Shown here piece by piece: positions 1 to 15,646 of a stretch of DNA of 60,488 nucleotides. The notes beneath the pieces are model-generated. The model was not told where the DNA came from and made no database searches. It was given only the letters and a program-made list of their open reading frames with translations. Both the position numbers and the translations under genes were made by a program. The stretch covers positions 1 to 60,488 of the forward strand of contig CANQFP010000003.1 in the NCBI GenBank assembly GCA_947599965.1, written 5' to 3'. Within the stretch, counting starts at the first letter, position 1, and every line of letters starts with the position of its first letter. Source of the stretch: an uncultured Atopobiaceae bacterium (GTDB taxonomy: Bacteria; Actinomycetota; Coriobacteriia; Coriobacteriales; Atopobiaceae).

Positions 1-143
1 TTCCCCTCCAGGACTTCACGTCCGACTCCGACATCGACTGGTCGCAATCGGTCTCCGACATCGACACGCAGCTCTACAAGAAGTACGGCCTGTCTGAGGA
101 CGAGATCGACTTCATCGAGACGCATGTGAAGCCGATGGAGTGA
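1..143 (+). CDS. C-terminal end of a DNA methyltransferase (partial)
   Basis: The window opens inside a gene read from base 3, with its stop TGA at 141-143. The 46 visible residues contain the stretch DIDxQLYKKYGLSxDEIxFIE and end in VKPME. From memory this resembles the C-terminus of Eco57I/type ISP-like adenine-specific methylases, whose last residues often read IDxQLYxKYxLSxEEIxFIE. The catalytic motifs lie outside the window. The stop sits three bases before the ATG of the next gene, a helicase/nuclease restriction protein, so the two almost certainly form one restriction-modification transcript. The family call is moderate; the coding call is firm because the frame is open and followed directly by the next gene. 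Confidence 0.7.
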   Translation, partial: PLQDFTSDSDIDWSQSVSDIDTQLYKKYGLSEDEIDFIETHVKPME

Positions 144-145
144 CC

Positions 146-3100
146 ATGCCTCCCAAGATCAAATCCTTCGTAGAGGTAGAGCCTCGGGTTTACGCCTACA
201 TCACGCCGGAGATCGAGAAGCACCACGGCTGGTCGAAGATCGGCTACACGGAGAAGCAGACTCCCGAAGATCGCGTGAGGCAACAGACCCATACCGTCGA
301 CATCGACTACGTGATCGAATGGCACGAGAGGGCCCAGTACACCGACGGTACCGGCGAACTCTTCCGGGATACCGACTTCCACAACTATCTCGAGCGGCAC
401 GAGGGCGTTGATCGCATCCCGGGCACGGAATGGTTCCATATCGTCGCTCCCGAATCACATGACACGTTCCTCACCTTCGCCGCACGCGGAATAGAAGCCA
501 TCGAAGATGGATCCAATTACGTCTTGCGAGATGAGCAACTTGATGCCGTCGAGAAGACGCGAGCGTATTTCGAGGCCGGGGGCACGGAATTCCTCTGGAA
601 CGCCAAGCCGCGCTTCGGGAAGACCCTGACGGCCTACGACCTCGTTCGCACGATGGGCATGAGGAACGTGCTCGTCCTCACGAACCGTCCCGCCATCGCG
701 CATTCATGGCTTGATGACTTCGTGAAGTTCATCGGTTGGCAAGATGGCGGGCGCTATGCCTTCGTCACGGACAACAACGTGCTCAAAGGCCAAAACGGCG
801 TGACGTCGCGCAGCGTCTACGCGCATCGGACGAGCGCGGAACGGCCCGATTCGCCGACCGCACATCGAATGATCGCCTTCGAATCGTTGCAAGGCCTCAA
901 AGGATCGGTCTATTTCGGCGGTGACTACGACAAGCTCAAATGGCTCACGCAGGTCAAATTCGACCTGCTCGTACTCGACGAATCGCACGAGGGCGTCGAC
1001 ACGGAGCTCACCGAGCTCGCGCTCAGGCAGATCAAGCGAACTCGCACTCTCTTTCTTTCCGGGACACCCTTCAAGGCGCTGGCGGACGCGCGTTTCGATG
1101 AGGACCAGATCTTCAACTGGACGTATCTCGATGAGCAGCAGGCGAAGCTCGACCACGAACGGGATGAGGTGAACCCCTACGAGGACATGCCCTCGATGGA
1201 GATGTACACCTACCAGATGTCCGCCATGATCGAAGGCGAGCTCTCGAAGCGAGCCGACCTCTCCGAGGGCAGGTCCGCCGACATAGCCTTCGATCTCAAC
1301 GAATTCTTCGCCGTTCAGGAGACCGGGGCATTCCGGCACAAGGAGTCCGTGGAGCGCTTTCTCGAATCCTTGACCACGCAGGAGAAGTATCCGTTCTCCA
1401 CTCCGGAACTCCGTGCGGAGCTCTCCCACACCCTCTGGATTCTCGACCGAGTCGACTCGGTGAGAGCCCTGGCCAAGATGCTCGCCGCCCACCCGGCTTT
1501 CAAGGACTACAAGGTGGTCGTGGCGGCCGGCGACGGCAAACTCGACGAGGAAACCGAAAACAGGACGGCGTACGAGCGGGTCAAGCGGGCCATCGCGGAG
1601 AACGACAAGACCATCACGCTCTCCGTCGGGCAGTTGACGGTGGGCGTGACCATTCCCGAGTGGAGCGGCGTGCTCATGCTGTGCAACATGAGGAGCGCCC
1701 AATCCTACGTGCAGGCGGCGTTCCGTGCGCAAAACCCGTGCTTGTTCGAGAAGAACGGGAAGTTCTATCGCAAGGAGCGGGCGTACGTCTTCGATTTCGA
1801 CCCCGCCCGCACCCTCATCGTGTATGAACAGTACGCGAACAGCCTGAAGCCGGGAACGGCGGGTGGAGCCGGAACCGCCGAAGACCACAGGCAAAACGTA
1901 AAGAGGCTGCTGAACTTCTTCCCCGTGATCGCAGAAGACGATGCGGGGAAGATGGTGCCCCTCGACGCGAGCAAGGTCCTGTCGATGCCGCGCAAGATCA
2001 AGTGCGAGGAGGTCGTGCGCCGGGGCTTCATGTCCAACTATCTCTTCCAGAACATCTCGAACCTCTTCAGCTCCCCGGCGCTTTACAAGGTGATCATGGA
2101 GAGCCTCCAACCCTATAAGGAGCCGAGGCCGAAGCACACGGTTATCGAGAGCATCGAGGACATCGTGGTGGATGCCCATGGGGACGTCGTCACGTCGCCC
2201 GAGACGGTTCGCAGGAAGGCCAAGGACCTGTTCAGCGAGAAACAGTACGAGTCCGTTGAAAAGGTCGTGAGCATTCCCATCCGCCTCGCGTCGTCCGAGC
2301 ACGATCTCGACGAGGTCAAAGCGAAGATCGAGCGGCATGCCGACGATGTCGCCCAGGCCCTGAGCGATACCTTCGTCAACACGGCGTTGGAGGCGAGCGA
2401 TCTGAAGCCGCGTGCAGAAGCGCGTCTACGGAGGAAGCTCGAGGACGCGGTCACGAAGTCCTATGGCAGCGTGGTGCAGGATTACGAGCGCGAGGTTCGC
2501 ATAGCCGCCACGGAGTTCGAAAGCTCGAAGAAGGCCGCCGATACGGAACTTGAATTGCAGGAGGCTCGGAAGGCCTTTGAAGCGGCGACGCAGGAGGCGG
2601 ATCGCAATCTCGCCGCAGCCCTCGAGGAGGTCAGCCAGACGATTCTCGAGGAACAGCCTCTCGCAATCGTCGAGACGATCGAGCGCGAGGAGACGTTGAC
2701 CAAGAAGCAGAACGTGGAGAACGCGATCCGCGACCATCTTCGGGGATTCTCGCGGACGATACCGAGCTTCATCATGGCCTATGGCGATCGCAACCTCACG
2801 TTGGCCAACTTCGACGACTACACCGAAGACGATGTGTTCAGGGAAGTCACGGGAATCACGGAAGATGAGTTTCGCCTGCTACGCGACGGGGGAGACTATC
2901 GTGACCCGGAGACGGGCGAGGTGTCGCATACGGAGGGCCATTTCTTCGACGCGACGGTCTTCGACGATTCCATCCAACAGTTCCTCGACAAACGCGATGA
3001 GCTGCAGAATTACTTCGACGAGACGCTCGTGGAGGACATCTTCGATTACATCCCACCCCAGAAGACCAACCAGATCTTCACGCCCAAATGGGTTGTGAGG

Positions 3101-3475
3101 GAGATGGTCGACCTCCTCGAGCAGGAGAATCCGGGGTGCTTCGATGATCCGAACGCCACCTTTGCGGATCTCTACATGAAATCAGGCCTCTTCATCACCG
3201 AGATCGCAACGAGGATGTACAACAGCGAGGCTCTGATGGATGCCATTCCCGATGACGATGAGCGCATACGCCACATCTTGCTCGAGCAGCTCTACGGCAT
3301 GGCGCCGACGAAGATCATCTACCTCATCGCCATGAACTTCATTTTCGGCTTCAACGATGAGCTGCGACAGCAGGCGGCGGAGGGGAAGCTCAAGCACTAC
3401 GCGCTGGCGGATGCCGCCCAAGCCGCGAAGCAAGGCACGCTGCAGAGACTCGTGAACGGGAAGTTCGGACGTTAG
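146..3475 (+). CDS. GIY-YIG/DEAD-box restriction protein with degenerate methylase-like C-terminus
   Basis: Putative restriction subunit of about 1,109 residues. Residues about 14-46 look like a GIY-YIG/T5orf172 nuclease module (VYAYIT, then WSKIGYT, then an Arg-containing helix). A superfamily 2 helicase/translocase core follows, with a Walker-A-like KPRFGKT near residue 155, a DESH box near 280 and SGTPF (motif III). A charged coiled-coil region spans about 700-880. The C-terminal 150 residues resemble the start of an N6-adenine methylase: QIFTPKWVV, then a motif-I-like ADLYMKSGLF. No NPPY catalytic motif follows, so methylation presumably comes from the partner encoded just upstream. ATG at 146 is preferred over GTG at 140 because GGAG at 137-140 is correctly spaced. 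A hairpin follows the stop. The domain calls are mine and unverified. Confidence 0.85.
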   Translation: MPPKIKSFVEVEPRVYAYITPEIEKHHGWSKIGYTEKQTPEDRVRQQTHTVDIDYVIEWHERAQYTDGTGELFRDTDFHNYLERHEGVDRIPGTEWFHIVAPESHDTFLTFAARGIEAIEDGSNYVLRDEQLDAVEKTRAYFEAGGTEFLWNAKPRFGKTLTAYDLVRTMGMRNVLVLTNRPAIAHSWLDDFVKFIGWQDGGRYAFVTDNNVLKGQNGVTSRSVYAHRTSAERPDSPTAHRMIAFESLQGLKGSVYFGGDYDKLKWLTQVKFDLLVLDESHEGVDTELTELALRQIKRTRTLFLSGTPFKALADARFDEDQIFNWTYLDEQQAKLDHERDEVNPYEDMPSMEMYTYQMSAMIEGELSKRADLSEGRSADIAFDLNEFFAVQETGAFRHKESVERFLESLTTQEKYPFSTPELRAELSHTLWILDRVDSVRALAKMLAAHPAFKDYKVVVAAGDGKLDEETENRTAYERVKRAIAENDKTITLSVGQLTVGVTIPEWSGVLMLCNMRSAQSYVQAAFRAQNPCLFEKNGKFYRKERAYVFDFDPARTLIVYEQYANSLKPGTAGGAGTAEDHRQNVKRLLNFFPVIAEDDAGKMVPLDASKVLSMPRKIKCEEVVRRGFMSNYLFQNISNLFSSPALYKVIMESLQPYKEPRPKHTVIESIEDIVVDAHGDVVTSPETVRRKAKDLFSEKQYESVEKVVSIPIRLASSEHDLDEVKAKIERHADDVAQALSDTFVNTALEASDLKPRAEARLRRKLEDAVTKSYGSVVQDYEREVRIAATEFESSKKAADTELELQEARKAFEAATQEADRNLAAALEEVSQTILEEQPLAIVETIEREETLTKKQNVENAIRDHLRGFSRTIPSFIMAYGDRNLTLANFDDYTEDDVFREVTGITEDEFRLLRDGGDYRDPETGEVSHTEGHFFDATVFDDSIQQFLDKRDELQNYFDETLVEDIFDYIPPQKTNQIFTPKWVVREMVDLLEQENPGCFDDPNATFADLYMKSGLFITEIATRMYNSEALMDAIPDDDERIRHILLEQLYGMAPTKIIYLIAMNFIFGFNDELRQQAAEGKLKHYALADAAQAAKQGTLQRLVNGKFGR

Positions 3476-4895: not shown

Positions 4896-5531
4896 CTAGA
4901 GCACGAGTGCGCCGAGGTAGAAGTGGATCATGCCGCCCACGTAGAGCGCGAAGAGGATGCCGCACGCCCAGTAGCAGACCTTGTCGATGACCTTTAGGGT
5001 GTCGGGATTGCTCACCATGTGCACGAGCATGAGCCCCTGGCCGAGCGAGACGGCCACGTGCATCATCACGAATCCGAAGAACGCGAGCTCGGTTGCCACG
5101 TAGAAGAGAAACATCAGCAGGTCGAGCTTCTCTCCCGTCGCGACGGCGCCGAACGCCTCGATGTGGAAGTGCAAAAGGATGATGATCGCGATCGCGCTCA
5201 CACGCTGGATGAGGATCGATCTCGGGTCCTTCTTGTAGGTGAGGGCGCCACCTTCGGCAAAGAAGAAGAACAGCACGAGCACGAGGAACACGTGGACGAC
5301 CACGCAGCCGGCGATGATCCACGCCGAGCTCACGGCGACGTCGCGGTTGTACCAGCCGGTCCACATGGACCAGCCCATCATGAGCGAGTGATAGCAGAGT
5401 GCGAGCACCGTGATGAGGGCGATCCACGCGTTCACGCGCCGGAGTCCGAGCCCCGGCACCGAGGGGCGGGGTTTCACGGCGGAGGATGGGCGGGCCGGTG
5501 TGAGGGAGCTGGCGGATTTCTGCGGGCTCAT
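4896..5531 (-). CDS. Multi-pass cytochrome b-like subunit (SdhC/FrdC type)
   Basis: A 211-residue membrane protein with about five hydrophobic helices (near residues 34-52, 68-91, 106-125, 137-160 and 186-210). Histidines lie inside or at the ends of helices (CYHSL, VVVHVF, LLHFHIE, MMHVA, LVHMV, MIHFY). That pattern suggests haem b ligation, as in membrane anchors of succinate dehydrogenase/fumarate reductase. No flavoprotein or iron-sulfur subunit gene is adjacent, so the partner must be elsewhere or the role differs. The start is placed at the ATG giving MSPQKS because upstream sequence in this frame is antisense to the dehydrogenase gene. Only a weak ribosome-binding site is visible. The coding call is firm and the family call tentative. 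Confidence 0.65.
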   Translation of the reverse strand: MSPQKSASSLTPARPSSAVKPRPSVPGLGLRRVNAWIALITVLALCYHSLMMGWSMWTGWYNRDVAVSSAWIIAGCVVVHVFLVLVLFFFFAEGGALTYKKDPRSILIQRVSAIAIIILLHFHIEAFGAVATGEKLDLLMFLFYVATELAFFGFVMMHVAVSLGQGLMLVHMVSNPDTLKVIDKVCYWACGILFALYVGGMIHFYLGALVL

Positions 5532-5641: not shown

Positions 5642-8260
5642 CTAGCGCACGAAGAGCCGCACGAGCTTCTCCGAGAGCTCGCGATAGGGCTGGTAGCGAA
5701 GCGGGAGATCCATCCACGTGAGCTTGTTCACGATGCTCTTCTCGTGGCTGAAGGCCTCGTAGCCGCGTTTGCCGTGGTAGGAGCCCATGCCACTCGCGCC
5801 CACGCCGCCGAAGGGCATGGACGAGGTGGCGAGGTGGATCACGACGTCGTTCACGCACCCGCCACCGAAGGCGTGCTCGCGCATGACCTTGTGGGAGAGG
5901 ATCGGATCCTCGCTGAAGAAGTAGAACGCGAGCGGGTGCGGGCGCTCGTCCACCTCGGCGAGGGCCGCGTCGAGGTCGTCGTAGGCGATGATCGGCAGGA
6001 TCGGGCCGAAGATCTCCTCGCCCATGCAGGCGTCGTCCCACGAGACGTTCGTGAGGACGGTGGGGGAGATCTTGCGCTCGGACGCGATGGCCTCGCCGCC
6101 GACCGCGACCTTGAGCGGGTCGATGAGACCGAGCAGGCGCCGGTAGTGCTTGTCGTTCACGATGGCCACGAGATCGGGGTCCTCGAGCGGGTTCTGGCCG
6201 AACTGGCGGTGGATCTCCCCCTCGATCTCGTCGACGAGCTCTTGGGCGATGGCGCGATCGACGAGCACGTAGTCAGGCGCCACGCAGGTCTGGCCGGAGT
6301 TCAGGAACTTGCCCCAGACGATGCGGCGCGCGGCGAGGGCGACGTTGGCCGTCTGCTCGACGATGCAGGGGCTCTTGCCGCCGAGCTCGAGGATGGCAGG
6401 CGTGAGGCGCTCGGCGCAGTGGCGGAGCACCTCGCGGCCCACGGGCTGGCTCCCGGTGAAGAACACGAGGTCGAAGGGCTCGTCGAGGAGCGCCTTGTTC
6501 TGCTCGCGGCCTCCGGTCACGCAGGTCACGTGCTCGGGGCCGAAGGCATCCGCGATGAGCTTGCGGATGATGGCGCTCGTGGCGGGGGAGTAGGCGCTCG
6601 GCTTCACGACGCAGCAGTTCCCGGCCGCGATGGCGTCCACGAGCGGATCCATCGTGAGGAGGAAGGGATAGTTCCACGGGCTCATGATGAGGGTCGTGCC
6701 CATGGGCGAGCGGGTCGTGTAGGAGACGGAGGCGGTCTGGGCGAGCGGCGTCCAGGCGAGCTTGTCGGCCATGGAGCCGAGGAGATGGCGCTTCTGGTAG
6801 TGGAGCTCGGAGAGCACGAGCCCGACCTCGCACATGTAGGACTCGAAGCGGCTCTTGGAGAGATCGGCCGCCAGGGCATCGTAGATGTCCTGCTCGTGTT
6901 CGAGGATGGCGTGCTCGAGCTGGTCGAGGGCGCGAATCCGGAAGCTCCGCTCGAGCGTGCGGCCCTCGGCGAACCACGCCCTCTGGCGGCTCACGAGCTC
7001 CGTGATCTCCCGGGCGCGCGCCTCCGGGGTGTCCTCGGGGCCCTCCTCGAGCTCCTCGGCGGGCGCCATGAGCGCGCGGAAGACGTTGGCGAGGCTGCGG
7101 GCGTCCATGAGCACGGGCACGGGGTAGAGCGGATTGGCCTCGGCCGCGGCCCATTCCGAGAGCTGCGGGATGTCGGCGCGACGGATCTCGGGGAAGGTAT
7201 CGGGAATGCCGAAGCGCACCTTCATCTCGACGATCTTGGCGATGAAGCGCTGGGCCGCCTCGTGGGCCGGCGTGGAGGGGGTGGCGAGCCCGGCGGCGAC
7301 GGCGAGATCGGCCAGCTTCGGCTCCGCGGCCTCTCCGTAGATCTCGAGCATGAGCGGCAGGATCACCGCGTTAGCGTAGCCGTGGGGGATGTCGTAGGCG
7401 CCGCCGAGCGCGTGCGCGACGGCGTGCACGTAGCCCACGTAGGAGACGGTGAACGCGCATCCCGCGAGGTAGGCGGCTTGGAGCATGGCACGTCTGGCCG
7501 CGAGGTCCTCCGGATGCCCGTAGCTCTCCTCGAGGTTCTCGAAGATGAGGCGCACGGCCTCGAGGGCATCGGATCGGGTCTGCTCGGTGGTGGAATTGCC
7601 GATGTAGGCCTCCACGGCGTGGGTGAGGGCGTCGAGGCCGGTCGTGGCCGTGAGCGAGGGCGGCAGCGTGCGCGTCATCTCGGGATCGAGCACGGCGTAG
7701 CGGGGGATGAGCGGGAAGTCGTTGATGGCGTACTTGTGGCGCGTGCGCGCGTCGACGATGACGGCGGCCAGCGTCACCTCGCTGCCGGTGCCGGCGGTCG
7801 TGGGGATGGCGATGAGGAGCGGCAGGGGATGGAGCACCTTCAGGATGCCCGCGAGCTTCGAGAGCGGCGTGCGCGGGCGGGCGACGCGGATGCCCACGCC
7901 CTTGGCGCAGTCGATGGAGGAACCGCCGCCCACGGCCACGATGGCGTCGCAGCCCTCCGCCTTGTAGAACTCGTAGGCCTCCTCCACGGTCTCCGTCGTG
8001 GGATTGGCGCGCACGTCGGCGAAGATCGCGCAGCCGATGCCCGTCGCGTTGATGGCGCTGATGAGCTCCTTCGTGCCCTCGAGCTGGTAGACGCCCGGGT
8101 CGGTGACGATGAGCGGACGCCTCGCACCCTCCTTGCGCAGGATCTCCGGCACGTCCTTCACCGAATCGAGCACCTCGGGCCGGCGATAGGGGAGCACGGG
8201 GATGGCAACGCCCATGCCGGTTTGGAACGTGCGGCACCAGGCCTGCTCGATGGGGTTCAT
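5642..8260 (-). CDS. Fused iron-type alcohol dehydrogenase - aldehyde dehydrogenase
   Basis: A single 872-residue chain. Residues about 1-390 form an iron-dependent alcohol dehydrogenase. It has the nucleotide motif [11 protein letters not shown] and metal ligands in DALTHAVE (Asp, His), AHALGG and PHGYAN (two His). A short acidic Ala/Glu/Pro-rich linker leads to an aldehyde dehydrogenase domain with [15 protein letters not shown] (base Glu) and NSGQTCVAP (nucleophile Cys), ending like class-3 aldehyde dehydrogenases (SHEKSIVNK). The order is the reverse of AdhE, and the aldehyde half looks like the non-acylating class-3 type rather than the CoA-acylating type. It would interconvert alcohol, aldehyde and acid with NAD(P). 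The start MNPIEQ follows GGAAGGATCC. A palindromic operator candidate sits upstream. Confidence 0.92.
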
Positions 8261-8332
8261 GGAGGATCCTTCCGGTTGACGATGCGCGAGGCGCGGGGTG
8301 GCGATGAAGCGTCGCGTGCGGTTTTCTCGATT

Positions 8333-8348
8333 GGTTGAAAGTTCAACC
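8333..8348. promoter_or_regulatory. Inverted-repeat operator candidate
   Basis: GGTTGAA-AG-TTCAACC has perfect 7-bp arms. It lies just downstream of the minus-strand -10 at 8355-8360, overlapping the expected transcription start of the alcohol/aldehyde dehydrogenase fusion. A dimeric repressor site is the simplest reading. Confidence 0.5.
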
Positions 8349-8354
8349 TCGCGC

Positions 8355-8360
8355 ATTCTA
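8355..8360 (-). promoter_or_regulatory. Candidate -10 for adh-aldh fusion
   Basis: Read on the minus strand this is TAGAAT, about 95 bp upstream of the start codon. No good -35 is visible at 17 bp, which would suit an activated or weak promoter. It is positioned beside the inverted repeat at 8333-8348. Confidence 0.4.
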
Positions 8361-8401
8361 GCGGACCGTGGCACCTCCGATGCCCTACGTTGCGATCTCA
8401 A

Positions 8402-8423
8402 CTAAGGATGAGCTAAGGATGAG
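8402..8423. repeat. 11-bp perfect tandem repeat
   Basis: CTAAGGATGAG occurs twice in direct head-to-tail contact (8402-8412 and 8413-8423) in the divergent intergenic region. It could be a direct-repeat regulator site or a slippage duplication. Confidence 0.6.
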
Positions 8424-8540
8424 ACGAAGAACGGGTCGCCCGGTTCCAAACGGCCCTTGGGACGAGCGGTGCGTTTTGAACAAATCCGCCTCGCGAATGG
8501 GGCGAATTGTTGTGACGGCCCTGTGGTTCACTAGGCGCAG

Positions 8541-8560
8541 CCGAGGGCATGCGCCCTCGG
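8541..8560. promoter_or_regulatory. GC-rich hairpin in sbcD leader
   Basis: CCGAGGGC-ATGC-GCCCTCGG is a perfect 8-bp stem with a 4-nt loop, 30 bp before the sbcD start. No T-run follows, so it is more likely a leader structure than a terminator. Confidence 0.4.
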
Positions 8561-8589
8561 TGCTCGAGTTTCGGCGACGGGAGCGGGCG

Positions 8590-9753
8590 ATGCGATTTCT
8601 GCACATCGGCGATCTTCATCTCGGCAAGGTGGTCTCGGGCTATTCCATGCTCGAAGATCAATGCCAAACGTTGGAGCGGCTGTTGGACGATGCCGAGGAG
8701 GCCGAGGTGGAGGCCCTCGTCTTCGCGGGGGATCTCTACGATCGCTCGGCTCCCTCCGCCGAGGCCGTGGCGCTTCTGGATTGGCTTCTCACCGAGGCCT
8801 CGGAGCGGGGCTTCGAGGTGCTGCTCATCCCCGGCAACCACGATTCCGCCGAGCGCGTGGGATATGGTTCGGTGCTCCTCGAGCGTCAGGGCGTGCATGT
8901 GGCGCCGCCCTTCGCCGGCTCGATGACGAGCGTCATCCTCGAGGACGCGTACGGCGAGGTGCGCTTTTGGCTTCTGCCGTTTCTGCGGCCGGGCACCGTG
9001 CGCCCCTTCTTCGAGGAGGCCGAGATCGGCTCGGACTACGCCGCGGCGCTGGGAGCGGTGCTCGAGGCCGCGAGCGTGGATCCTGGCGAGCGCAACGTCC
9101 TCGTGGCGCATCAGTTCGTGCGTGCCGGCGGTGCGGAGCCCGAGCGAAGCGATTCCGAGACGAGCATCGGCGGTCTCGATGGCGTGGATGTCTCGCTCTT
9201 CGACGACTTCGACTACGTGGCCCTGGGGCACCTCCATCGTCCCCAGCGGGTGGGGCGTGGTACCGCGCGCTACGCCGGATCGCTCTTGAAGTACTCGCTC
9301 TCCGAGGCCCATGGGCAGAAATCGGCCGTGCTCGTGGACCTGGGGCCGAAGGGCGAGGTGGAGTGGTCGCTCCTGCCGCTCAGGCCGCCGCACGATCTTC
9401 GCGAGATCCGCGGGCCGCTCGACGAGCTTCTCGCCGAGGAGGTGCTCGGAGCGGCCGATCGCGAGGACTACGTCCACGCCATCCTCACCGATGACGAGCC
9501 CCCGGTCGACGCCCTCGCGCGGCTTCGCGCGACGTTCCCCAGGCTCATGGCCATGGATGTGGATAACGCGAGCACCCGGCGCATCGCCGATCTCGCCCAC
9601 GTCCAGGTGGAGGAGGCGGCGGACGACCCCCTCGAGCTCTTCGAGCGCTTCTTCGAGGAGCAGACGGGGCGTGAGGTCTCGAGTGTGCAGCGCGAGTTCT
9701 TGAACGAGGTCTTCGCCGAGTGCCTCGTCGATTTCGAGGGGAGTGCCTCATGA
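8590..9753 (+). CDS. sbcD: Exonuclease SbcCD, nuclease subunit SbcD
   Basis: A 387-residue Mre11-type metallophosphoesterase that works with SbcC to cleave DNA hairpins and blocked or protein-bound ends. All metal-binding motifs are visible in order: GDLHLGK (residues 7-13), GDLYDR, GNHDS, AHQF and GHLHR. The start is the ATG giving MRFLHIGDLHLG, the normal family N-terminus, preceded by a purine-rich GGGAGCGGG. Its TGA overlaps the ATG of sbcC (ATGA), so the two subunits are translationally coupled as expected for a stoichiometric complex. Confidence 0.97.
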   Translation: MRFLHIGDLHLGKVVSGYSMLEDQCQTLERLLDDAEEAEVEALVFAGDLYDRSAPSAEAVALLDWLLTEASERGFEVLLIPGNHDSAERVGYGSVLLERQGVHVAPPFAGSMTSVILEDAYGEVRFWLLPFLRPGTVRPFFEEAEIGSDYAAALGAVLEAASVDPGERNVLVAHQFVRAGGAEPERSDSETSIGGLDGVDVSLFDDFDYVALGHLHRPQRVGRGTARYAGSLLKYSLSEAHGQKSAVLVDLGPKGEVEWSLLPLRPPHDLREIRGPLDELLAEEVLGAADREDYVHAILTDDEPPVDALARLRATFPRLMAMDVDNASTRRIADLAHVQVEEAADDPLELFERFFEEQTGREVSSVQREFLNEVFAECLVDFEGSAS

Positions 9754-12577: not shown

Positions 12578-13564
12578 ATGGAAAACGCCGTACGGGGCAA
12601 CGCATCTCGCTATCGGGAGGTTCGGAGGATCCTCTGGACCATCCTCGCCCTGAACGTGCTCGTGGCGCTCGCGAAGTTCGGTTGGGGCACGATTTCCGGC
12701 TCCATGGCCATGACCAACGACGGCATCGCGAGCTTCTTCGACGGATTCTCGAACCTCGTCGGGCTGCTCGGCGTGCGCATCGCCGCGAAGCCGCCGGACG
12801 CCTCGCATCCCTATGGCCACGCGAAGTACGAGACCTACGCCTCGGCGGTCATCGGCGTGGCGCTGCTCATCGCCGCTGCCGAGATCGCCACGAAGGCCAT
12901 CTCGTCGCTCGTGGGCGGTGAGAGCGTCATTCTCGTCGATTGGGTGAGCTACGCAGTCATGGTGGGCACCCTCGTCGTGAACCTCGGCGTCTCCATCTGG
13001 GAATCGCGCCAGGGCGCGCGCCTCAAGAGCGAGGTGCTCGAGGCCGATGCCAAGCACACGCGCTCAGACGCCTACGTCTCCGTCTCCGTCATCTGCTCCC
13101 TCGTCTTCGTACAGCTCGGCATCGCCGCCGCTGATGCCGTGGTATCGCTCCTCGTGGCCGTGGCGGTGCTCGGTTCGGCCATCTCGATCTTCCGCCAGGC
13201 GTCGCGCACGCTGGGCGATGCCTCGCGTCTGAGCACGGTCGCCGTGGCACGTCTCGTGGAAACCGTGCCGGGAGTTCGCTCGGTGCACGAGGTGCGAAGC
13301 CGGGGGAGCGAGGGTGAGGTCTACGTGGACCTCCACATCCTGCTCGATCCGGAGATGACGCTCATGGAGGCCCATGATCGGGCCACCGAGGTCGAGCGCC
13401 TCATCGAGGAGATCTATCCCGAGGTGGCAGACGTCATGGTGCACATGGAACCGGACGTCGCCGAGGAGCGCCGAGACGCCCTCGGTCCCGGGATTCCGCG
13501 CGAGGAGTATGGTTCGGGGAGCCGCATGCGAAGGAGTGCGGGTGCGAGAAGGAGACAGTCATGA
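12578..13564 (+). CDS. Cation diffusion facilitator transporter, copy 1
   Basis: A 328-residue cation efflux protein: an N-terminal membrane domain with about five to six helices and a C-terminal ferredoxin-like regulatory domain (GSEGEVYVDLHILLDPEM). Helix 5 keeps the metal ligands HTRSD. In helix 2 the usual (H/D)xxxD reads ASFFD, so the first ligand position is alanine; the preceding Asn-Asp of TNDGI might substitute. HPYGHAKYET follows helix 2, as in the family. CDFs exchange Zn, Fe, Mn or similar ions for protons; the substrate is unclear here. It starts 2 bp after sbcC, and its TGA overlaps the ATG of the Zn alcohol dehydrogenase. Confidence 0.92.
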   Translation: MENAVRGNASRYREVRRILWTILALNVLVALAKFGWGTISGSMAMTNDGIASFFDGFSNLVGLLGVRIAAKPPDASHPYGHAKYETYASAVIGVALLIAAAEIATKAISSLVGGESVILVDWVSYAVMVGTLVVNLGVSIWESRQGARLKSEVLEADAKHTRSDAYVSVSVICSLVFVQLGIAAADAVVSLLVAVAVLGSAISIFRQASRTLGDASRLSTVAVARLVETVPGVRSVHEVRSRGSEGEVYVDLHILLDPEMTLMEAHDRATEVERLIEEIYPEVADVMVHMEPDVAEERRDALGPGIPREEYGSGSRMRRSAGARRRQS

Positions 13565-14598
13565 GAGCCGAGGGAGCGTTTTTCCTGGGAGCCGAGGCCG
13601 ATCCCGTCTTCGAGGTCCGCGAGATGGAGTTCGGCGAGATCGGACCCCATGAGGTGCTCGTGGAGGTTCGCGCCTGCGGTGTCTGCGGCACCGACGTGCA
13701 CATCTACCACGGCGAAAAGGGGTCCGCGGACGTGACGCCGCCCGTGGTGCTCGGCCATGAGTTCTCCGGTCGCGTCGTCGAGGTGGGCTCGGAGGTGGAG
13801 GTCGTGGCGCCCGGGGATCACGTGACGCTCGATCCCAACATGTACTGCGGTCGCTGCCGGCCCTGCCGCATGGGTAGGAAGCAGTGCTGCGAGCATCTCT
13901 TCGCCCTCGGCGTGAACGTGAACGGCGGTTTCGCGGAATACGCGCTCTGCCCCGACACCCAGTGCTATCCCGTCTCCAAGGACGTGGGTTTCGAGGCGGC
14001 TGCCATGGCCGAGCCCCTGGCCTGCGCCATCCACGGCATCGATCAGGCGAACATTCGCGAGGGCGAGAACGTGCTCGTCATCGGCGGCGGCACCTTGGGC
14101 CAGATGATGTGCCAGCTCGCCCAAGCGGCGGGTGCCTCCACGGTCATCCTCTCCGAGCCGGTGAAGCTTCGCCGGGAGGTGGGCCTCGCCCTTGGCGCGG
14201 ACGCGGTCATCGACCCCATCCACGAGGATCTCGTCGCCGAGGTGGCGGAGATCTGCGGCGCGCCCGGGGCCGACGTGGTCATCGAATGCGTGGGCAATCC
14301 CCGCGTCGCCCGTCAGGCCATCGACGCCGCCGGCCCCTGCGGTCGCGTCGTGCTCTTCAGCGTACCGGCCGTGGACGCGACCCTCGAGCTTCCGCTCTTC
14401 GACGTCTACGCCAAGGAGCTCACGATCGCGGGTTCGCGCATCAACCCCGATACGCACCAGCGAGCCGTGAACCTCCTGGACGCGGGGCTCGTGGACGTGA
14501 CGAAGCTCATCACGCATCGCTTCGGCATCGATGAGCTCGAGCAGGCGATCCTCACCCAGCAGGGCTCCGATTCCATCAAGGTGATCGTCACCCCCTAG
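13561..14598 (+). CDS. Zinc-dependent medium-chain dehydrogenase (sorbitol/threonine DH-like)
   Basis: A 345-residue medium-chain dehydrogenase/reductase. Catalytic zinc ligands lie in ACGVCGTD (Cys) and LGHEFSG (His-Glu). Structural zinc is held by the four cysteines of CGRCRPCRMGRKQCC near residue 100. The Rossmann motif is VIGGGTLGQ near residue 175. The overall pattern is closest to polyol or L-threonine 3-dehydrogenases, which oxidise a secondary alcohol with NAD(P). Specificity cannot be assigned. It is translationally coupled to the upstream CDF and sits between two CDF paralogues, which could supply or remove the zinc that this enzyme requires; that link is inference. Confidence 0.92.
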   Translation: MRAEGAFFLGAEADPVFEVREMEFGEIGPHEVLVEVRACGVCGTDVHIYHGEKGSADVTPPVVLGHEFSGRVVEVGSEVEVVAPGDHVTLDPNMYCGRCRPCRMGRKQCCEHLFALGVNVNGGFAEYALCPDTQCYPVSKDVGFEAAAMAEPLACAIHGIDQANIREGENVLVIGGGTLGQMMCQLAQAAGASTVILSEPVKLRREVGLALGADAVIDPIHEDLVAEVAEICGAPGADVVIECVGNPRVARQAIDAAGPCGRVVLFSVPAVDATLELPLFDVYAKELTIAGSRINPDTHQRAVNLLDAGLVDVTKLITHRFGIDELEQAILTQQGSDSIKVIVTP

Positions 14599-14674
14599 CC
14601 GGAAGCGCTCGGCCAGAGCGCGGCGAGCGCGGGGTACATACCACGGCAGTGGCTTCGATGAGGTGGGAGGCGCC

Positions 14675-15646
14675 GTGGCCGACACGCGTGAGAGTTCCGA
14701 GATCCGTGCGCAGACGCCCGCCGCGCGCATCGACGCCGCGAGCCGCGCCAAGACCCTCACGCGGATCCTCTGGATCGGCTTCGCGCTGAACGTGGTCGTC
14801 GCCGTCTTCAAGTTCGTCTACGGCAACGTCACGTGCTCCATGTCCATGACCAACGACGGCATCGCGAGCTTCCTCGACGCCGGCTCGACGCTCATCGGCC
14901 TCGCCGGCGTATCCATCGCGAGCCGTCCGCCCTCCGATCGCCACCCCTACGGCCACGCCAAATACGAGACCTACGCCTCGGTGGCCATCGGCGTCATCCT
15001 CATCGTCGCCGCCGGCGACATCGCCCGCGAGGCGATCGAGACGCTCCTCGAGGGCGGCAGCCATGTCATGGTGGATTGGGCGAGCTACGTCATCATGCTC
15101 GGCACCATGGCCCTCAACATCTGGGTCGCCTGGTGGGAGGGCCGCTGGGGCCGCGAGCTCCACTCCGAATCGCTCACCGCCGACGCCAAGCACACGTGGA
15201 CCGACGTCTACGTCTCGGTCTCGGTCATCTGCTCGCTCATCTTCGTGCAACTCGGCTATCCCGCGGCCGACGCCCTCGTCTCCCTCATCGTCGCCCTCGC
15301 GGTGCTCGCCTCGGCGATCTCCATCTTCCGCGAGGCGAATCGCACCCTCTCCGACGTCTCGCGGCTCGACGCCGGCGAGGTGGCCGAGATGGTCGAGGGC
15401 GTGCCGGGCGTCGCCGGCGTCCACGAGGTGCGCAGCCGCGGCACCGAGGGCGAGGTCTACGTCGACCTCCACGTGCTCCTCGATCCGGAGATGACGCTTC
15501 GCGAGGCCCACGAGGTGGCGAGCGAGGCCGAGGCGCTCCTCGAGCGCACGTTTCCCGAGGTGGCGGATGTGAGCGTGCTCATGCGGCCGGCCGAGGACGC
15601 GGCGGGAGGCGCATCGGCGGACGATGCACCCGCTCCGGGCGCCTAG
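14675..15646 (+). CDS. Cation diffusion facilitator transporter, copy 2
   Basis: A 323-residue paralogue of the CDF at 12578, sharing TNDGIASF, HPYGHAKYETYAS, ADAKHT, SVSVICSL and the C-terminal EVYVDLHVLLDPEM block. As in copy 1, helix 5 keeps HTWTD while helix 2 reads ASFLD, with alanine in place of the first His/Asp ligand. GTG at 14675 is preferred as start because GGTGGGAGG lies just upstream; GTG at 14663 is an alternative adding four residues. Its stop shares the CTAG palindrome with the stop of the convergent EIIB-ROK gene. The paralogues probably arose by local duplication. Confidence 0.92.
   Translation: MADTRESSEIRAQTPAARIDAASRAKTLTRILWIGFALNVVVAVFKFVYGNVTCSMSMTNDGIASFLDAGSTLIGLAGVSIASRPPSDRHPYGHAKYETYASVAIGVILIVAAGDIAREAIETLLEGGSHVMVDWASYVIMLGTMALNIWVAWWEGRWGRELHSESLTADAKHTWTDVYVSVSVICSLIFVQLGYPAADALVSLIVALAVLASAISIFREANRTLSDVSRLDAGEVAEMVEGVPGVAGVHEVRSRGTEGEVYVDLHVLLDPEMTLREAHEVASEAEALLERTFPEVADVSVLMRPAEDAAGGASADDAPAPGA

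Follow-up and report, generated by a model that had tools for sequence, protein, structure and literature searches.

The analyzed window (60,488 nucleotides of a contig from an uncultured Atopobiaceae bacterium) carries on its minus strand a single uninterrupted ORF (5642–8260; ATG at 8260, stop codon at 5642–5644), encoding a predicted 872-aa protein in which an alcohol dehydrogenase (ADH) is followed by an aldehyde dehydrogenase (ALDH). An alternative TTG start at position 8401 (919 aa) was rejected, since the homologs share the MN... start and the ATG is preceded by a GGAGG-like site. Pfam analysis identified the domains Fe-ADH (PF00465; residues 33–193), ADH_Fe_C (PF25137; 204–396) and Aldedh (PF00171; 410–843), which confirms the ADH-first domain order (ADH 33–396, ALDH 410–843) proposed in a sequence-only reading of this DNA.

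The iron-containing ADH half (residues 1–396; 7073–8260, minus strand) contains the metal ligands D210, H214, H279 and H293, i.e. the Asp-His-His-His set of group III enzymes, as well as D54, located at what we take to be the NAD-specificity position, where an Asp fits NAD. The class-3-like ALDH half (residues 410–872; 5645–7033, minus strand) contains N530, E625 and C659, the catalytic Asn/Glu/Cys set of class-3 ALDHs (ALDH3). The metal-ligand and catalytic positions are conserved wherever they are covered, in fused and separate forms alike (100 non-duplicate loci, see below), so that the metal ligands and the nucleophilic Cys are indeed intact, as had been claimed. The fusion carries Ala556 (Ala in 89 of the 100 rows) at a position occupied by Glu in ALDH3A1 and S. 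aureus AldH; this replacement may, we presume, admit NADP into the ALDH half.

The protein was modeled with AlphaFold using a 91-row alignment (pLDDT 89, pTM 0.75), which replaced an 11-row run with a pLDDT of 63. The two halves are joined by a flexible linker (about residues 401–409; 7034–7060, minus strand), whose residues 402–409 were modeled with very low confidence (pLDDT <50), as expected of a disordered stretch. Residues 3–22 (8195–8254, minus strand; conserved motif YCR-x-F-Q...LPY) are predicted to form an amphipathic helix, and alignments with solved ADHs start only at about residue 32. Most relatives have a cationic, amphipathic helix here, that of the window protein being less charged. 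A further conserved amphipathic stretch is present at the end of the ALDH half (modeled helix 861–871, low confidence). The two terminal helices suggest contact with the membrane surface or between subunits. Each of the 50 rows listed in a Foldseek search matches only one half of the protein.

A gene encoding a 211-aa membrane protein (4896–5531, minus strand) is located 110 bp downstream of the fusion gene and is kept beside it in relatives; it is a putative member of the same unit, and it gave no Pfam or NCBIfam match. Elsewhere in the window, two genes of CDF-type cation efflux proteins (12578–13564 and 14663–15646) flank a gene for a threonine-dehydrogenase-like zinc dehydrogenase (13561–14598), perhaps as a result of duplication around one gene. 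ORF 140–3475 (1111 residues) lies in a stretch of lower GC content (60%, compared to about 69%). It appears helicase-like by its motifs, gave no NCBIfam match and is possibly a mobile or restriction-linked gene.

Distribution and origin of the fusion

The same fusion is present in six genomes of one Atopobiaceae group, including the window genome. It is complete in four of them (the window, L007, L008 and L009) and cut by contig ends in two (L010 and L043). All five genomes labeled as belonging to the own or same genus match the fusion, in one case (G343) with the match spread over two contigs. The five other Atopobiaceae carriers are MAGs named Lapin, which, by the name, come from rabbits. 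Although the window genome is a 96-contig draft, the joining of two genes by a sequencing or assembly error, which the sequence-only reading had named as a finding that would refute it, has a negligible probability and is refuted by the independent genomes of this group and by similar fusions in other lineages.

The search for other proteins of the same domain order, which that reading had proposed, was based on a scan of GTDB genomes (80 loci) supplemented by a class-wide search of 396 genomes. Four loci (L087, L088, L089 and L097) were dropped as duplicates, and L144, which contains only the ADH half, was left out of the pair count. This analysis revealed 100 loci with both halves, 18 of them fused under translation table 11. 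A nineteenth fused locus (L044; 25.8% GC) was recognized when TGA was read as Trp: its TGA codons are placed at conserved Trp positions (e.g. P-W-N-Y-P), and the AdhE gene of the same genome contains seven in-frame TGA codons as well. The L044 fusion (6001–8600 of that locus) comes from a MAG labeled Mycoplasmataceae, and the clade in which it is placed otherwise consists of Clostridia MAGs; this reflects either transfer into a lineage with TGA=Trp or a mislabeled bin. A further sample of 151 genomes, from the family to which one of the Clostridia genomes with a fusion belongs, added 16 loci containing both halves (5 fused), giving a total of 24 fused (19/100 plus 5/16) and 92 separate forms (81 plus 11) among 116 loci. 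Since the loci were fetched by their similarity to the fusion, these fractions are not unbiased frequencies.

In most other relatives, which include many gut members of the Lachnospiraceae, Oscillospiraceae and Coriobacteriia, ADH and ALDH are encoded by two neighboring genes in that order, either overlapping or a short distance apart, and their frames may be the same or different. The fusion was derived from an ADH-ALDH operon pair, and its domain order is the former operon order. In one unfused close relative of the Clostridia fusions (L129, genome G506), the ADH gene and the ALDH gene overlap and are read in different frames, possibly representing a pre-fusion state.

The phylogeny of each half, likewise proposed in the sequence-only reading, was reconstructed after removal of short loci and of five near-identical Collinsella-like loci (80 of 82 single-half reference sequences entered the alignment). 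On both trees the fused rows fall into four groups: (i) the Atopobiaceae fusions; (ii) a Clostridia clade (L029, L030, L033–L038, L041, L042, L044, L045, L046 and L145); (iii) G504 and G510; and (iv) G525 and G494, with groups (iii) and (iv) found in the 151-genome sample of one family. The fused label requires four changes on both half-trees, and the starred branches force three of them.

AU tests, performed on trees of 41, 45 and 46 rows representing hand-picked subsets, rejected a single origin on both halves for groups i+ii (p = 0.009 and 1.3e-5) and for ii+iii+iv (p = 6e-8 and 6e-11). The combination i+iii was rejected on the ADH half (p = 0.030) and not on the ALDH half (p = 0.096), and i+iii+iv was rejected on the ALDH half (p = 0.027). 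Groups iii+iv joined were not rejected (p = 0.145 and 0.387). At least three independent origins of the fusion are therefore well supported, and four is the best estimate.

Counts alone cannot polarize the changes of state, and groups iii and iv may form one clade, so it was considered whether a single ancient fusion might have been split many times later. This scenario is improbable: parsimony requires more splits than fusions, splitting leaves unexplained why the linkers of the fused groups are unlike in both length and sequence, and the genes of separate pairs frequently overlap with a change of frame, unlike the outcome of a simple split.

Conserved operator and MarR-type regulators

A MarR-type gene lies upstream of the ADH-ALDH pair, directly or with one gene between, in 26 loci; in many others the upstream sequence is too short for its presence to be assessed. 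Two members that were scanned gave a Pfam match to PF12802 (MarR_2). The intervening gene, present in a few loci, encodes a DegV protein (L030) or a choloylglycine-hydrolase-like protein (L033, L037 and L041). With L032 excluded from the count (its MarR gene begins at the locus end), the palindrome TTGA-N4-TCAA was identified either upstream of the MarR gene or at its start in 24 of 25 testable loci, often doubled, with the copies about 45 bases apart. The rest of those loci contains 4 such sites in 310,826 bases, and palindromes with a spacing of 3, 5 or 6 were found in none of the 25 windows upstream of MarR.

The same palindrome is placed upstream of the fusion gene, at its promoter, in all six Atopobiaceae. 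In the window it forms a perfect inverted repeat, GGTTGAA-AG-TTCAACC (8333–8348), which overlaps the probable transcription start and is a putative MarR-type operator. It directly follows a -10-like element, TAGAAT (8355–8360, minus strand), an arrangement shared by 5 of the 6 Atopobiaceae (TAAGAT in L009). A scan for promoter consensus sequences at the fusion gene found no promoter pair. A second, related copy (GTTG-N6-CAAC; 8389–8402) is located farther upstream, and such a copy is present in 5 of the 6. Among the 66 loci in which no adjacent MarR gene was found, the site is present in 14, including all six Atopobiaceae and six near-identical Collinsella-like loci, and 52 are without it. The fusion gene and the MarR gene of its relatives therefore have an operator in common, as expected of a MarR regulon, and this link between a MarR-type operator and the ADH-ALDH pair is what is new here. 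It suggests that the fusion gene is under MarR-type control via TTGA-N4-TCAA.

In the window genus the MarR gene does not adjoin the fusion gene. A MarR homolog (41%) is encoded elsewhere in the window genome (contig C20, 7242–7673; L116 of genome G000), and no such operator was found within 16 kb around it; that this homolog controls the fusion gene is a guess. It directly follows a gene whose iron-sulfur protein product resembles an FeFe hydrogenase. The longer form GTTGA-N4-TCAAC was found four times in the window genome, compared to none for its backwards control, and the other copies (contigs C4, C27 and C50) revealed no clear regulon.

FabT was also considered as the owner of the operator. 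Its box, given as ANTTTGATTATCAAATT in the available text of PMC10138225, has a spacing of 3, compared to the spacing of 4 observed in 24 of 25 loci (3 in 0 of 25). The NCBIfam scores were weak as well, and this candidate was rejected.

Proposed function

On balance, the protein is likely to be a bifunctional, MarR-controlled, NAD(P)-dependent oxidoreductase converting aldehydes into alcohol plus free acid, which arose from an ADH-then-ALDH pair fused separately in at least three lineages. The iron-ADH half would interconvert alcohol and aldehyde with NAD(H), and the class-3 ALDH half would oxidize this aldehyde, yielding the free carboxylic acid. Most likely, a toxic aldehyde, which is probably hydrophobic or aromatic, would be disposed of in a fermenting cell partly as alcohol and partly as acid, at a low net redox cost. 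The gain from fusion might be a fixed 1:1 ratio of the two activities or a shorter transfer of the aldehyde, and the terminal helices may dock the enzyme on the membrane surface.

Comparison of the neighborhoods across loci revealed no conserved metabolic neighbor of the pair or the fusion besides MarR, and the neighboring genes indicated no substrate. A link to plasmalogens through DUF2229 (PF09989) proved uninformative, since this domain is present in 23 of 24 genomes regardless of whether they contain the pair.

Of the other explanations, the one that survives best, although we consider it unlikely, is one-way catabolism of an alcohol through aldehyde to acid, in which the aldehyde would be passed between the halves and two reduced cofactors would be gained per alcohol. 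Under this explanation the domain order would equal the reaction order, and the ADH half does resemble models of choline and methanol dehydrogenases too, at scores below the cut-off. However, iron-ADHs often favor aldehyde reduction, strict anaerobes would need an electron sink, and the neighborhood comparison identified no conserved gene for alcohol uptake or release. A precedent for a co-operonic and functionally coupled ALDH/ADH pair is gbsA-gbsB, as described in the available text of Konno et al. (PMC12454647).

A rather doubtful possibility is that the recurrent reversed fusion is docked on the membrane surface and acts there as a redox-neutral dismutase of aldehydes. The NADH of one half would be turned over by the other, and a hydrophobic aldehyde would yield alcohol and acid at one site; the cofactors might also differ, with NAD used by ADH and NADP tolerated by ALDH. 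If this were true, the recurrence of fusion with the order unchanged would point to selection for coupling, and the family would serve to test independently whether inter-domain channeling is an invariable result of joining ALDH to ADH.

It is very improbable, in turn, that the protein is an AdhE-like fermentation enzyme whose ALDH half acylates CoA despite its class-3 appearance. ALDHs of the acylating AdhE type lack the general-base Glu. E625 is present in all covered rows of the pair and the fusion, and Val occupies the aligned place in the AdhE of the window genome itself. For this reason the free acid, which the sequence-only reading had expected as the product, remains the better guess compared with acyl-CoA. 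The window genome keeps an ordinary AdhE (split over the ends of contigs C47 and C63), so the fusion probably serves another purpose than plain ethanol fermentation; AdhE was searched for in 13 genomes, two of which (G092 and G396) apparently represent one genome, and scored above the cut-off in 7. Use of CoA by the fusion may nevertheless occur, since BdhE, an independent fusion with an ALDH half most similar to ordinary aldehyde dehydrogenases, reduces acetyl-CoA according to the available text of PMC12454647.

Relation to known enzymes

The ADH half matches 1,3-propanediol oxidoreductase (3bfj), the methanol dehydrogenases of B. methanolicus and lactaldehyde reductase (FucO), with which it shares the metal ligands and the NAD-type Asp. 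Compared with these iron-containing ADHs, the fusion has in addition the conserved N-terminal amphipathic helix and the ALDH half. The class-3 resemblance claimed for the latter was borne out by both sequence and fold: among the matches listed, its nearest relatives are S. aureus AldH (6k10, 42%; also 6k0z), human FALDH (4qgk, 39%), ALDH3A1 and benzaldehyde dehydrogenase. The nine PDB sequence matches listed are ALDH3-type or MdlD, and the first 14 Foldseek rows are ALDH3-type, MdlD or ALDH3-like. These enzymes, 39–42% identical over the fold, differ from the fusion in standing unfused and, in the case of ALDH3A1 and S. aureus AldH, by the Glu at the place of Ala556.

AdhE (NF010378, K04072) likewise combines an ALDH fold and an iron-ADH in one protein for two-step alcohol/aldehyde chemistry. 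However, it has ALDH first and ADH second and is of separate origin, whereas the ALDH half of the fusion is class-3-like with a general base. The fusion scores 260 bits, compared to the NF010378 cut-off of 951 bits, and is derived from a different gene pair, so the term "AdhE-like" used in the earlier reading holds only as an analogy.

A close parallel is BdhE (Konno et al. 2025, PMC12454647; PDB 9LDL), which, as far as the available text describes it, is also an ALDH/ADH fusion formed from neighboring genes independently of AdhE. It has the opposite order (ALDH first) and other source families, and its structure (9ldl_C) matches the reversed fusion in two stretches only. BdhE is a ring tetramer by cryo-EM, while the reversed fusion is known here from its sequence and a predicted model. 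In the literature covered, which lies mostly outside subscription journals, no study of a reversed ADH-ALDH fusion was found; the one treatment is in the available text of PMC12454647, which notes, in a single sentence and its methods and without follow-up, five reversed ADH-ALDH proteins in InterPro. These have the same domain order as the fusion and may include members of the present groups.

Konno et al. (2025; PMC12454647, available text) used two ALDH-first enzymes, AdhE and BdhE, to argue that fusion leads repeatedly to inter-domain contacts and channeling. The present groups contribute three or more additional fusions of separate origin with the domains reversed; each has extant unfused relatives, and the linkers differ between them. 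They can therefore be used to ask whether the order of the genes determines that of the domains, whether channeling re-evolves and which structures result, while the conserved operator provides a handle on when gut bacteria need the ADH-ALDH enzyme.
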